NCBI RefSeq assembly: GCF_008386315.1
Contig: NZ_CP043808.1
Span: forward strand, 310,001 to 374,000
From: Serinicoccus marinus DSM 15273
GTDB lineage: Bacteria > Actinomycetota > Actinomycetes > Actinomycetales > Dermatophilaceae
DNA length: 64,000 nucleotides
Direction of reading: 5' to 3'
The translations under genes and the position numbers were made by a program. The first letter of the stretch is position 1; every line of letters begins with the position of its first letter. The notes below the pieces were generated by a model. The model saw nothing but the letters and a program-made list of their open reading frames with translations, searched no databases and was not told the origin of the DNA. Positions 2,288 through 61,827 of this stretch are shown piece after piece.

Positions 2288-2320
2288 CCCGGGGTCGCGG
2301 CAGGTCGCCGCGGCCCCGGG
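2288..2320 (+). terminator. hairpin terminator after clpB
   Basis: A 14-bp stem (2288-2301 with 2307-2320, one G-T pair) closes a 5-nt loop 21 bp after the clpB stop. There is no T-run, which is common for actinobacterial terminators. It separates clpB from the pst operon. Confidence 0.6.
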
Positions 2321-2336
2321 CATACCGCCCGCGGAA

Positions 2337-2369
2337 CTTCGACCGTCGTTCACGCGGCATTCACCTCTC
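2337..2369 (+). promoter_or_regulatory. PHO-box-like triple direct repeat upstream of pstS
   Basis: Three adjacent 11-bp units: CTTCGACCGTC (2337-2347), GTTCACGCGGC (2348-2358), ATTCACCTCTC (2359-2369). They share a TTCA-type core at exact 11-bp spacing, the layout known for PhoP binding sites of actinobacteria such as Streptomyces. Position upstream of pstS fits induction by phosphate starvation. Binding by a PhoP homologue is inferred; no PhoP gene is in the window. Confidence 0.6.
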
Positions 2370-2396
2370 ACGCCCGAGCACGTCACGTGTGCTCCC

Positions 2397-2402
2397 TAGG
2401 TT
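2397..2402 (+). promoter_or_regulatory. probable -10 element of pstS
   Basis: TAGGTT matches the actinobacterial TANNNT pattern. It lies 27 bp after the last PHO-box unit, so the box would sit at or above the -35 position, as expected for an activator site. About 85 nt of leader would precede the pstS start. Confidence 0.4.
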
Positions 2403-2494
2403 CGACCTCGGTTGGCGACGCCGCCACCACGAACCGGGCGCCGTCTCACTGGCGCGTCCGGCTGTCCTGGAAGACGTGCAGAGAGGTTCAACCC

Positions 2495-3628
2495 GTGAAG
2501 CTCCACCGCTTTGGTCCGACCGTCGCGATCGCGATGGCGGCCTCGCTCACCCTCGCCGCCTGCGGCGACGACGCGCCCACCACCTCCAGCAACGAGGGGT
2601 CCGACGAGGGCTCCGACGCCGGCTCCGAGGAGTCCGGCGAGGAGGGCGGCGAGACCCTCTCCGGCGACGTGCTCGGCTCGGGCGCGTCCTCCCAGGAAGC
2701 GGCCATGACCGCCTGGATCGCCGGCTACCAGGGCACCCAGCCCGAGGTGACGGTGCAGTACAACTCCGTGGGCTCCGGCGCCGGCCGGGAGAACCTCATC
2801 GCCGGTGCCTCCGACTTCATCGGCTCCGACGCCTACCTGGACGAGGAGGAGCGCGAGGCGGTGACCGACACCTGCGGTGAGGGCGGCGCCATGCACGTCC
2901 CGGTCTACATCTCCCCGGTCGCGGTCGCCTACAACCTGCCCGGCGTCGACGGCCTGCAGCTCTCGCCCGACACCCTGGCGCAGATCATGAACCAGGACAT
3001 CACGACCTGGGACGACGCGGCCATCGCCGAGGACAACCCGGACGCCGAGCTCCCGGACACCGAGATCACCGTGGTCCACCGCTCCGACGACTCGGGCACC
3101 ACCGAGAACTTCATGGAGTACCTCACCGCCGCCGCCCCCGACTCCTGGCCGCACGAGCCCAGCGACGCCTGGCCGGTCCCGGCCGAGGCCGCCGCGCAGA
3201 ACACCGGCGTCATCCAGGTCATCAACGACAACGAGGGCACGATCGGGTATGCCGACGCCTCGGTCGTCACCGGCCAGTCCGCCGCCATCGGCGTGGGCGA
3301 GGAGTTCGTCACCTTCTCCCCGGAGGCCGCGGCCAACGTCGTCGACGCCTCCGAGCCGGCCGACACCGGCGTCGAGGGCGACATGGCGCTGGAGCTGGCC
3401 CGCGACACCACCGAGTCGGGCACCTACCCGATCGTCCTCGTGAGTTACCACATCGCCTGCACCTCCTACGACGACCCGGAGCGGGCCAACCTCGTCAAGG
3501 ACTTCCTGTCCTACGTCGTCTCCGAGGAGGGCCAGCAGGCCGCCTCCGACGCCGCCGGGTCCGCCCCGATCTCCGAGGACACCCGCACCAGCGCGCTGGA
3601 GCTCATCGACACGATCCAGGGCGGCTGA
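2495..3628 (+). CDS. pstS: phosphate ABC transporter substrate-binding lipoprotein PstS
   Basis: High-affinity phosphate-binding lipoprotein of the Pst importer, 377 aa. I chose GTG 2495 rather than the longer open frame because AGAGAGG sits about 7 nt upstream and the protein then begins with a textbook lipoprotein signal: basic start, hydrophobic stretch, lipobox LAAC with the lipidated Cys at residue 23. A Gly/Ser/Glu-rich linker follows, then the phosphate-binding signatures GSGASSQ and SDDSGTTENF. First gene of pstSCAB, behind the PHO-box-like repeat. Family assignment is firm; start codon likely. Confidence 0.93.
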   Translation: MKLHRFGPTVAIAMAASLTLAACGDDAPTTSSNEGSDEGSDAGSEESGEEGGETLSGDVLGSGASSQEAAMTAWIAGYQGTQPEVTVQYNSVGSGAGRENLIAGASDFIGSDAYLDEEEREAVTDTCGEGGAMHVPVYISPVAVAYNLPGVDGLQLSPDTLAQIMNQDITTWDDAAIAEDNPDAELPDTEITVVHRSDDSGTTENFMEYLTAAAPDSWPHEPSDAWPVPAEAAAQNTGVIQVINDNEGTIGYADASVVTGQSAAIGVGEEFVTFSPEAAANVVDASEPADTGVEGDMALELARDTTESGTYPIVLVSYHIACTSYDDPERANLVKDFLSYVVSEEGQQAASDAAGSAPISEDTRTSALELIDTIQGG

Positions 3629-3650
3629 CACCTGTCCCGCCCACGTGCCA

Positions 3651-3693
3651 CCCCGGACCGGCGGTCGACCGAGGAGTCGACCGCCGGTCGGGG
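3651..3693 (+). terminator. strong hairpin between pstS and pstC
   Basis: A perfect 14-bp inverted repeat (3656-3669 with 3676-3689, 6-nt loop) extended by CCCC/GGGG around one bulged base. It lies in the only sizeable gap of the operon. It probably acts as an attenuator or mRNA-stabilising element that lets pstS be made in excess of the membrane subunits, an arrangement common in binding-protein operons. No T-run follows. Confidence 0.55.
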
Positions 3694-60202: not shown

Positions 60203-60249
60203 CGAAAGGGCCACCGACCCTGCGTTTCCGCAGGTCAGCAGCCCTTTCG
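60203..60249 (-). terminator. hairpin after tRNA-Pro, supplied by the element
   Basis: CGAAAGGGC (60203-60211) pairs with GCCCTTTCG (60241-60249), with an inner CTGCG/CGCAG stem. On the reverse strand it lies 5 nt past the tRNA CCA end and is followed by ATTT. It replaces the ancestral terminator now at 54019-54057. Confidence 0.55.
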
Positions 60250-60254
60250 TGCCA

Positions 60255-60277
60255 TGGTCGGGGTGACAGGATTTGAA
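60255..60277. repeat. attR: 23-bp att repeat within tRNA-Pro
   Basis: Identical to 54062-54084; covers the 3' acceptor strand, part of the T-arm and the CCA of the tRNA, so the gene stays functional after integration. Confidence 0.88.
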
Positions 60278-60331
60278 CCTGCGACCTCTTCGTCCCGAAC
60301 GAAGCGCGCTACCAAGCTGCGCCACACCCCG
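60255..60331 (-). tRNA. tRNA-Pro (anticodon CGG)
   Basis: 77 nt including an encoded CCA. Acceptor stem CGGGGTG/CACCCCG, anticodon stem CTTCG/CGAAG around loop TTCGGGA with CGG at 34-36, T-loop TTCAAAT. Reads CCG codons. A -10-like TATTCT is at 60375-60380 on the reverse strand. Target of the integrated element. Confidence 0.95.
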
Positions 60332-60400
60332 TGGCCCGTGCGCGAGCCCGGCAGGACCGCACGCAGCGTCCGCAAGAATAGCCCACGCCCCGGGTCGCGG

Positions 60401-61357
60401 CTAAATCCCCGGACCGCCGGCCGTCAGGGTGATGAGGGTCGCCTCCGGGCGGCAGCAGAAGCGGAACGGCGTGTAGGGGTTGCCGCCGAGGCCGGCGGAG
60501 ACGTGCAGCCAGGCGGCGCCCGGCGGAGCCTGCGACGAGGGCGTCGCGCCGGCGCCGGGCCACCACCGGGACACGCCGGAGGCACGGGAGGTGTCGAGGT
60601 CGCAGTTGGTGACGAGGGCGCCGTACCCGGGGACCCGCAGCTGGCCGCCGTGGGTGTGCCCGGCGACGAGCAGCCGGGCGCCGTCCGCGGCCATCGGGTC
60701 CAGCACCCGCTGGTAGGGCGCGTGGGTCACCCCGATCGTCAGGTCGGCGTCGGTGGCAGCGGGGGCGGACACGCTGGGGTAGTCGTCCAGCTCCAGGTGG
60801 GCGTCGTCGGTGCCCACGAGCTCCAGGTCCACGCCCGCGACCCGCAGCCGGACCCGCCGGTGGGTGAGGTCGGCCCACCCGCGACGCCGCAGGCCGTCGA
60901 CGAGGTCCTGCGTCGGGAGCACGTCCGGGGTGAGCTCGGCACCCTTGCGGTGGCTGTCGTCGAGGTAGCGCAGCGGGTTCTTGCGCGTCGGTGGGTAGTA
61001 GTCGTTGGACCCGAGGACGAAGACGCCCGGACGGTCCAGCAGCGTGCCGTAGGAGTCGATCGCCGCCGGGACGGCGTCCATCGCGGCGAGGTGGTCACCG
61101 GTGTGGACCACCAGGTCGGGGTCGAGCTCGGCCAGTCCCCGGACCCAGTCGCGCTTGCGCCACTGGGTGGGCACCAGGTGCAGGTCGGACAGGTGCAGCA
61201 CGCGCAGGTCGGGCGAGCCCGCGGGCAGGCAGGGGATGCTCGCACGGCGCAACGCGAACCACCGGGGCTCGACCCAGGTGGCGTAGGCGACGGCACCGGC
61301 CGCGAGAGCCCCCGCCCCGAGAACCGCGCCGGTGAGCGGGCGCCATACCGACGACAT
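60401..61357 (-). CDS. metallophosphoesterase (calcineurin-like)
   Basis: 318 aa. One N-terminal membrane segment ([21 protein letters not shown]), then the dimetal motifs [28 protein letters not shown] and [17 protein letters not shown]. The N-D-Y-Y form replaces the usual GNHD (Asn and Asp kept). Similar to membrane-anchored phosphoesterases next to ponA2 in mycobacteria. Substrate unknown. Confidence 0.88.
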
Positions 61358-61362
61358 CGTGG

Positions 61363-61827
61363 TCAGGCGCCCAGCGCCTGCTTCACCGCCGCGGCCACGC
61401 GCCCGCCCTCGGCGCGCCCGGCGACCCTCGGGGTGAGCACCTTCATCACCTGACCCATGCCGCGCAGGTCGGTGGCCCCGGTCTCGGCGACGGCCTCCCG
61501 CGCCATCGAGGCCAGCTCGTCGTCGGACAGCTGCGCCGGGAGGTATGCCTCGAGCACCGCGAGCTCAGCCTCCTCCTGGGCGGCGAGCTCGGTCCGGCCG
61601 GCGCCGGAGTAGGCCTCGGCGGCCTCGCGGCGCTTCTTGGCCTCCTTGGTGATGACCTTGAGCACCTCGTCATCGCTCAGCTCGCGCTGCTGCTTGCCGG
61701 CGACCTCCTCCGTCGTCACCGACGTCAGCGCCATGCGCAGCGTGCCCGCCCGGACCTTGTCCTGGGCACGCATCGCGGCCGTGAGGTCCTGCTGGAGGGT
61801 GGCCTTGAGGCCGGTCGAGTCACTCAT
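61363..61827 (-). CDS. GatB/YqeY domain protein
   Basis: 154 aa. All-helical YqeY protein: LKATLQQDLTAAMRAQDKVR at the start, TKEAKKRREAAEAYSGAGRTEL and LEAYLPAQLSDDEL, then MGQVMKVLTPRVAGRAEGGRVA. Related to the tRNA-binding tail of GatB; exact role unclear. GACACT ends 6 nt before ATG 61827 on the reverse strand (leaderless pattern). Confidence 0.9.
   Translation of the reverse strand: MSDSTGLKATLQQDLTAAMRAQDKVRAGTLRMALTSVTTEEVAGKQQRELSDDEVLKVITKEAKKRREAAEAYSGAGRTELAAQEEAELAVLEAYLPAQLSDDELASMAREAVAETGATDLRGMGQVMKVLTPRVAGRAEGGRVAAAVKQALGA

Follow-up and report, generated by a model that had tools for sequence, protein, structure and literature searches.

A GTATGCC word recurring along the Serinicoccus marinus chromosome and its likeness to DNA uptake sequences

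Why does one short word recur at close to once per kilobase, on both strands, along an actinobacterial chromosome? The question is raised by a stretch of 64,000 nucleotides from Serinicoccus marinus DSM 15273 (hereafter the window; positions 310001-374000 of a 3.42-Mb single-contig genome, 72.5% GC, coded G000), in which GTATGCC and its reverse complement GGCATAC are found again and again. We think that the word may well work like an uptake sequence, by which cells recognize DNA of their own kind, and put the probability of this at roughly 0.55. The word is likened to uptake sequences rather than assigned to them, because these are defined by preferential uptake and the evidence here consists of genome statistics. 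What we observe is an enrichment beyond the constraints of amino acids and codons, strand symmetry, regular spacing in G000, words specific to lineages, mutual exclusion of same-orientation copies in two genomes of the genus, and near-universal ComEC and Tad ATPase across the family.

Abundance of the word and its imprint on codons

By exact word count, the window holds 57 GCATAC/GTATGC hexamers (30 + 27), close to the 55 or so of the original prediction, and 52 of them are GGCATAC (28) or GTATGCC (24). A third-order Markov model fitted to the same sequence expects 5.3, and so the enrichment persists against such a model. The 8-mer GGTATGCC/GGCATACC occurs 35 times, where 1.8 are expected. The 52 sites are listed below, with GGCATAC given as - and GTATGCC as +. 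Eleven of the twelve example coordinates offered earlier were correct within 2 bases, and the other, 45467, should read 45457.

1603..1609, +, GTATGCC site
2319..2325, -, GGCATAC site
3247..3253, +, GTATGCC site
4391..4397, +, GTATGCC site
5295..5301, -, GGCATAC site
5615..5621, +, GTATGCC site
6763..6769, -, GGCATAC site
7929..7935, +, GTATGCC site
8203..8209, -, GGCATAC site
9728..9734, -, GGCATAC site
10947..10953, +, GTATGCC site
11283..11289, -, GGCATAC site
11398..11404, -, GGCATAC site
12456..12462, -, GGCATAC site
13487..13493, -, GGCATAC site
14737..14743, +, GTATGCC site
16097..16103, +, GTATGCC site
19031..19037, -, GGCATAC site
19811..19817, +, GTATGCC site
20530..20536, -, GGCATAC site
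22057..22063, -, GGCATAC site, inverted pair with 22078
22078..22084, +, GTATGCC site, inverted pair with 22057
23579..23585, +, GTATGCC site
25502..25508, +, GTATGCC site
26944..26950, -, GGCATAC site
28377..28383, -, GGCATAC site
28963..28969, +, GTATGCC site
29549..29555, -, GGCATAC site
30211..30217, -, GGCATAC site
31874..31880, +, GTATGCC site
32305..32311, -, GGCATAC site
33784..33790, +, GTATGCC site
35607..35613, -, GGCATAC site
35900..35906, -, GGCATAC site
36771..36777, -, GGCATAC site
37410..37416, +, GTATGCC site
38300..38306, -, GGCATAC site
38597..38603, -, GGCATAC site
39700..39706, +, GTATGCC site
42175..42181, -, GGCATAC site
42979..42985, +, GTATGCC site
45457..45463, -, GGCATAC site
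46744..46750, -, GGCATAC site
47304..47310, +, GTATGCC site
49486..49492, -, GGCATAC site
50480..50486, +, GTATGCC site
50986..50992, +, GTATGCC site, inverted pair with 51005
51005..51011, -, GGCATAC site, inverted pair with 50986
53453..53459, -, GGCATAC site
53612..53618, +, GTATGCC site
53780..53786, +, GTATGCC site
61543..61549, +, GTATGCC site

The word had also been claimed to run through the whole chromosome, in both orientations and in coding and intergenic DNA alike, and the wider counts bear this out. Genome-wide there are 2566 copies (1289 + 1277; 0.75 per kb), against 125 (64 + 61) of the same word read backwards, which served as our enrichment control. In a 464-kb sample of G000, made up of the window and 20 stretches of 20 kb, GTATGCC occurs 360 times against 39.0 expected (9.9 after motif masking) and has the top z among the 7-mers listed, while GGTATGCC occurs 252 times against 14.4 (3.3 after masking). 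Density across the 21 stretches ranges from 0.40 to 1.35 per kb. Fifty-two of the 360 sampled sites lie fully outside called genes and 10 more on gene edges, by crude, unverified calls from our own GC-frame script that leave 13% of the sample non-coding. Two other words are likewise over-represented in the sample: GTACTCC/GGAGTAC (70 against about 14) and AGGGCTTC (47 against 8.4).

Using the same sample and gene calls, we set the synonymous codon choices made in the motif context against those made elsewhere. Tyr TAT makes up 147/173 codons (85%) in the context G_GCC and 142/2116 (6.7%) elsewhere, and Ala GCA makes up 58/162 in G_TAC and 884/17272 elsewhere; the rare TAT and GCA codons that the original prediction had noticed in the motif are thus tied to that context. 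Three further codons, which it had missed, behave in the same way: Ile ATA (38/95 in GGC_C, 58/3644 elsewhere), His CAT (25/42 in motif context, 300/3103 elsewhere) and Val GTA (10/38 and 210/12252). The odds of the motif-making codon over its commonest rival codon rise about 6- to 79-fold, and half of the sampled TAT codons (147/289) fall within the motif. Amino acids and codon use do not explain the excess of the word. As both transitions and transversions are favoured, and at several positions, one mutational process is no explanation either.

Words of the relatives

The Mrp antiporter protein of the window shares 89-91% identity with Serinicoccus and 65-69% with Ornithinimicrobium, which places the genome in that group of actinobacteria. 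Sites in the window tend to be kept in a close, motif-rich relative. Twenty of them could be aligned with S. kebangsaanensis (84.7% identical), and 17 are conserved there, against 39% of random 7-mers. At seven other Serinicoccus/Ornithinimicrobium loci, which have fewer motifs, 26/75 sites are kept, near the random 7-mer rate (22 to 41%). The 52 lost site comparisons comprise 32 with several changes and 20 with a single change, at position 2, 4, 6 or 7.

The comparison with sister genera that had been suggested was run as a census of 186 family genomes from 53 genera. Taking as enriched any genome with at least 100 copies of GGTATGCC and at least 5 times the control, we find the word in 102 of them, from 31 genera, and other words in some of the poor relatives. 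GGTATGCC reaches at least 20 times control in 64 genomes and falls below 60 copies in 57. Summed across the family, its strands are balanced, at 46723 to 46615. None of 22 genomes in the order's other families (G036 to G057) is clearly enriched in the 7-mer; the top ratios are 3.0 (G049, with only 9 copies) and 2.5 (G045, 210 copies).

Scans of sampled stretches turned up further strand-balanced words. The first covered all 79 named loci; the second covered 36 of these, 15 of 17 order-level stretches (two short ones were dropped) and 13 other groups, and discarded any word that had less than 20% of its copies on one of the strands. CGAAGGGG is 12- to 28-fold over control in all 16 genomes of genus g52 and all three of g61, and at most about 4-fold in the remaining 167 family genomes; those 19 genomes carry at most 40 copies of GGTATGCC. 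For GTACGGCG the figure is 10.6-fold in G140; G141 and G142, of the same genus, carry 1694 and 347 copies of GGTATGCC. GTACGGCG is about 3- to 6-fold in G059, G060, G068, G069, G071, G144, G145 and G168, about 2-fold in, for example, G061, G146 and G031, and under control in G000 and G007. G168 has two words (964 GTACGGCG, 342 GGTATGCC), and G085 uses GTATGACG beside GTATGCCG, the form that the word takes, with the same core GTATGCC, in several other genera of the family. Within this one family, then, a genome mostly has one word in place of another.

In more distant actinobacteria the words are GTACGCCG, GGACGCCG or GGATGCCG. Across the class (296 genomes), GTACGCCG reaches 8- to 29-fold in 14/14 of genus g113, 2.4- to 4.4-fold in 8 genomes of g101, a genus of the same family as g113, and 9- to 16-fold in some genomes of other families. 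Ratios of 2- to 6-fold are common, which makes the reversed-word control lenient for this word. Single loci give 20 GTACGCCG against 2.1 in Nocardioides limicola, 44 GGACGCCG against 5.4 in Propioniciclava soli and 13 GTACGGCG against 0.8 in an Austwickia.

We then counted the synonymous codons that decide each word in a matrix of 21 genomes or loci by eight words (the core GTATGCC and seven 8-mers). Most groups favour their own word or words over the others: GTATGCC in G000 (778/1051 against 316 expected), GTATGCCG in G166 (127/152 against 50), GTATGACG in G085 (59/66 against 27), GTACGGCG in G140 (98/163 against 65), CGAAGGGG in G147 (128/149 against 66) and G109 (72/101 against 45.5), GTACGCCG in G267 (171/240 against 106), GGACGCCG in Propioniciclava (134/159 against 83) and GGATGCCG in G055 (55/65 against 37). 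Most of the remaining cells lie close to expectation or under it. The exceptions, with z values that are inflated because one motif can be counted through several codons, are GTACGGCG beside GTACGCCG in G267, G418, G239, Nocardioides limicola and Austwickia (z at least 3), GGATGCCG in G178 (z 6), G166 and G109 (z 3 each), GGACGCCG in G007 (z 4), and GTATGACG in G000 (z 4) and G161 (z 3). In G067 none of the words stands out, and the reversed controls never exceed an absolute z of 5. Six of the seven 8-mers match the frame G-K-A-Y-G-V-C-G, and CGAAGGGG does not.

The words CTGCGCGA, CAGCAGCA and AGGCGCTG were not considered further, since they either turn up in several genera or follow one strand. 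A weaker word, CGCCGAGG, was seen in Brevibacterium, and two loci hold one-strand repeat arrays, of ACAGTCGG (about 54 copies, L061) and GGGGAGCA (about 27 copies, L066), that look tandem or like clustered regularly interspaced short palindromic repeats.

Orientation and a proposed role in DNA uptake

Sites in G000 are spaced more regularly than at random (variance/mean 0.735 over 464 bins of 1 kb, standard error about 0.07). Pairs in the same orientation are depleted at short range, with observed/expected ratios of 0.22 (0-100 bases), 0.51 (100-300), 0.54 (300-600) and 0.73 (600-1000); the ratios for opposite-orientation pairs in these bins are 0.90, 0.97, 1.30 and 1.14, and beyond 1 kb both orientations lie at 0.90 to 1.18. 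All eight pairs closer than 60 bases are inverted, and at 20 to 600 bases there are 39 same-orientation pairs against 95 opposite ones. The motif's same-orientation fraction is 0.291, against a mean of 0.564 among 410 words of like abundance (the motif included), and only the motif and one overlapping word are that low. In G007 the pairs number 7 same to 32 opposite, the lowest of 224 words. Our reading of the result in this genus is that the element is oriented and reaches less than about 1 kb.

The orientation test was run on actinobacterial genomes only, and other genomes differ. Pooled over other GTATGCC genomes, the same-orientation ratios are weaker, at 0.43, 1.16, 0.64 and 0.86. Two GTACGCCG genomes have few pairs of either orientation at 100-600 bases, so the effect is not orientation-specific there; neighbours at 300-1000 bases stand at 12:12 and 6:10, and opposite pairs predominate only below 60 bases (8:1, 7:0).

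These features suggest a mechanism. GGTATGCC, or GTATGCCG elsewhere in the family, would be the local dialect of an actinobacterial code for self DNA. Fragments that bear the word would be preferred in natural transformation by a DNA receptor of the uptake machine, which in actinobacteria is probably a Tad/Flp-type pilus feeding ComEA/ComEC. As alleles with the word would then be imported and recombined more often, molecular drive, selection for self-uptake, or both would build up copies across the genome. The receptor would act on an oriented site, one copy serving at most about 1 kb on its side, and with such a one-sided reach we propose that a second copy nearby in the same orientation would gain little. 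If receptor specificity changed, then the genome of that lineage would be rewritten to a new word. Reading of the word during uptake, the protein that reads it, its direction of action and drive as the maintaining force are what we infer.

Most statistical features given for uptake sequences in the literature are present in G000. Uptake sequences occur about once per kb, with no orientation bias, more regularly than at random and with some close inverted pairs (PMC1626085; this and the other articles given by accession are cited from part of their content), and the Neisseriaceae have eight dialects of their DNA uptake sequence (DUS; PMC3630211). The likeness to DUS extends to a short non-palindromic word near 1 per kb on both strands, above-random regularity, some close inverted pairs and clade-specific dialects that share a core (PMC3630211, PMC1626085). 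The differences are another phylum and cell envelope, an unrelated word, no type IVa PilT above cut-off in 184/186 family genomes, no non-coding excess, and the same-orientation exclusion, which is a clear departure. The uptake signal sequence (USS) of Pasteurellaceae is similar in density, symmetry, regularity and the presence of dialects, of which it has two (PMC1626085, PMC7811141, PMC12616744). It differs in being flanked by AT-rich segments, none of which appear in our flank table, and its close pairs are usually terminators at gene ends (PMC7811141), whereas 8 of the 13 inverted pairs under 100 bases in G000 lie within one gene by the crude calls.

ComEC occurs in 180/186 family genomes, motif-poor ones included, and the Tad ATPase TIGR03819 is above cut-off in 168/186. 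In G000 this ATPase lies at 381 kb, about 7 kb past the end of the window; its cluster (genome 375000-389000, L206) is a candidate for the pilus part of a competence machine, and in Micrococcus luteus transformation requires tad genes (PMC4322843). By eye, a helicase-like gene lies near the cluster. A type IVa pilus was rejected as the machine, with PilT above cut-off in 2/186 family genomes. Four genomes (G142, at L108; G203, at L109; G035; G106) have a PilT-like ATPase or a stronger related match than the rest of the 186, and these ATPases were probably acquired. In a partial comparison of tad neighbourhoods from 20 genomes, nothing evident changes with dialect. Components of an uptake machine are present, and nothing tested varies with dialect. 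In G140, which alone in its genus has the GTACGGCG word, comEC aligns as two pieces that overlap by a few residues, possibly a frameshift (L183).

Several observations weigh against a role in uptake. ComEC and TIGR03819, being near-universal, do not separate motif-rich from motif-poor genomes; no receptor was found, no protein that tracks dialect is evident in the comEA-comEC neighbourhoods of 20 genomes, and we found no uptake experiment. The 12 genomes of genus g2 have the machinery and no detected word, in one genome scanned over 80 kb, and G022 and G065 are low in GGTATGCC, CGAAGGGG and GTACGGCG alike. The reversed-word control overstates GTACGCCG: G297 is 10-fold by that measure, yet has 28/67 against 22.6 when codon use is allowed for. 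Regular spacing is not found in every genome; in eleven others (40 to 80 kb each) variance/mean is 0.67 to 1.17 (the latter in G135), with 1.40 in G140 and 2.48 in G095. Same-orientation exclusion is clear in G000 and G007 and weaker or absent elsewhere. It is not described for DUS or USS in the parts of the literature consulted, and site orientation is irrelevant to uptake in H. influenzae and A. actinomycetemcomitans (PMC1939737). Non-coding DNA is enriched in known uptake sequences (PMC1939737), a usual rather than defining property, whereas motif density here is equal inside and outside genes by the crude calls. In the g2 genus itself, GGTATGCC numbers 13 to 30 copies, and the 80 kb of G178, which show no clear word, slightly favour GGATGCCG (72/114 against 48.8 expected).

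The same reasoning can be carried, more tentatively, to the whole phylum. Actinomycetota may carry an old and widespread code of oriented self-DNA words, mostly on the frame given above (GTATGCC(G), GTATGACG, GTACGGCG, GTACGCCG, GGACGCCG, GGATGCCG) and replaced in some genomes by the unrelated CGAAGGGG. The words would be read directionally in natural transformation through the Tad pilus and ComEC, and would switch between and within genera, setting barriers to gene exchange; we hold the chance of this to be somewhat under even. As of 2006, uptake sequences were not known outside Pasteurellaceae and Neisseriaceae (PMC1626085), little is known of competence in actinobacteria (PMC8467076), and we found no report of these words or of actinobacterial uptake sequences in a literature whose subscription papers were thinly covered. 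If true, this would be, to our knowledge, the first uptake-sequence system beyond those two Gram-negative families; it would also be the first to be read directionally, over a range of about 1 kb. Dialect words across the phylum would suggest which lineages exchange DNA, and co-variation of word and receptor would make a Gram-positive DNA receptor findable. Same-orientation exclusion would be a quantitative clue to a directional reader, and the word, added to donor DNA, a handle for the transformation of harmless strains that are difficult to engineer.

Other readers of the word

The main rival is a Chi-like oriented recombination signal, in which the word, on one strand, would stop or switch a helicase-nuclease other than RecBCD (AdnAB, for example), each orientation being needed about once per kb or two. 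Such a signal would fit an oriented element with mutual exclusion of same-orientation copies over distances up to about 1 kb, and Chi words, too, are over-represented 8-mers, commoner in the core genome than in acquired genes (PMC8022716). However, Chi is polarised along the replichore, on the leading strand, and consecutive sites are expected on the same strand (PMC8022716). The strand and replichore check that had been proposed for the word found no bias: beside the genome-wide balance of 1289:1277, the summed rows of the 21-stretch sample give 185 leading and 175 lagging sites (replichores split at the GC-skew change near 1.7 Mb, taken as the terminus). Consecutive sites less than 1 kb apart in G000 are opposite in 136/191 cases. 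RecBCD itself is unlikely to be the reader, as RecC is patchy and uncorrelated with the word (45/102 enriched genomes and 44/84 others in the family), and we rejected the RecBCD-Chi reading. The Chi-like alternative as a whole appears unlikely to us.

KOPS (FtsK orienting polar sequences), SRS (SpoIIIE recognition sequences) and TraB recognition sequences are oriented words of about 8 bases read by translocases. The word could likewise be read by another oriented DNA machine, be it an FtsK/SpoIIIE/TraB-like translocase, the packaging enzyme of a gene-transfer agent or a chromosome-organising protein, and CGAAGGGG does faintly resemble KOPS/SRS. We think this improbable, given that the sites have no polarity along replichores and that switching of words within a genus would be hard for an essential segregation factor. 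A KOPS reading of CGAAGGGG was rejected: GAAGGGG is strand-balanced, at 23:26 in G109 and 34:33 in G147 (80 kb each).

The interpretation in the original prediction is borne out in part: of its three candidates, the uptake-like signal is the best supported. A second was a HIP1-like element. HIP1, the highly iterated palindrome of cyanobacteria, has a debated function, its inner sequences are recognised by orphan methyltransferases, and other HIP sequences occur in a few genomes that are exceptions (PMC4390886). By analogy, a conserved orphan methyltransferase would modify the site here, and a process tied to methylation would select the word. The word is highly iterated, as HIP1 is, but HIP1 is a palindrome, whereas none of the words here is palindromic and ours is oriented; same-orientation exclusion would be unexpected for a symmetric mark. 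This alternative seems to us rather improbable, a shade more so than the translocases.

The remaining candidate, a repair target, fails in its simple forms: deamination of a methylated palindrome, or biased Vsr-like repair, lifting a functionless word is very improbable, since C to A is favoured as well as C to T, at several positions and in five codon contexts, the four members of the genus with the most copies of the 7-mer (G000, G007, G011, G026) yield no match to the Vsr family PF03852 at E 0.001, and the GGTATGCC excess (252 against 3 to 14) exceeds, by an uncomputed estimate, what one neighbouring word could feed. PF03852 was matched in 24 of the 58 genomes searched. In favour of a mutational origin, a single site of the palindrome GGCATGCC, from which GGTATGCC would derive, was counted in the 464-kb sample, where about 8 are expected, and the totals for this palindrome in those four genomes (G007 44, G011 47, G000 53, G026 68) are somewhat lower than in motif-poor G022 (104). 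Genome-wide, however, its 53 sites in G000 are close to the expected number (about 58, extrapolated), and conversion of this palindrome was rejected as the source.

An uptake sequence would be expected to be sparser in recently acquired DNA. Three stretches of G000 were picked for being without forward sites. In the one at 252-272 kb, which has 66% GC and transposase-like genes, 3 sites were counted over 20 kb where about 15 are expected, as would fit an uptake sequence; the remaining two, with 10 sites in 14.2 kb and 5 in 10.2 kb, are near average. The first (genome 252001-272000, L201) is a low-GC island that, as judged by eye from the first 50 residues, holds an IS3-like and another transposase-like gene and two MazF-like genes with the same start.

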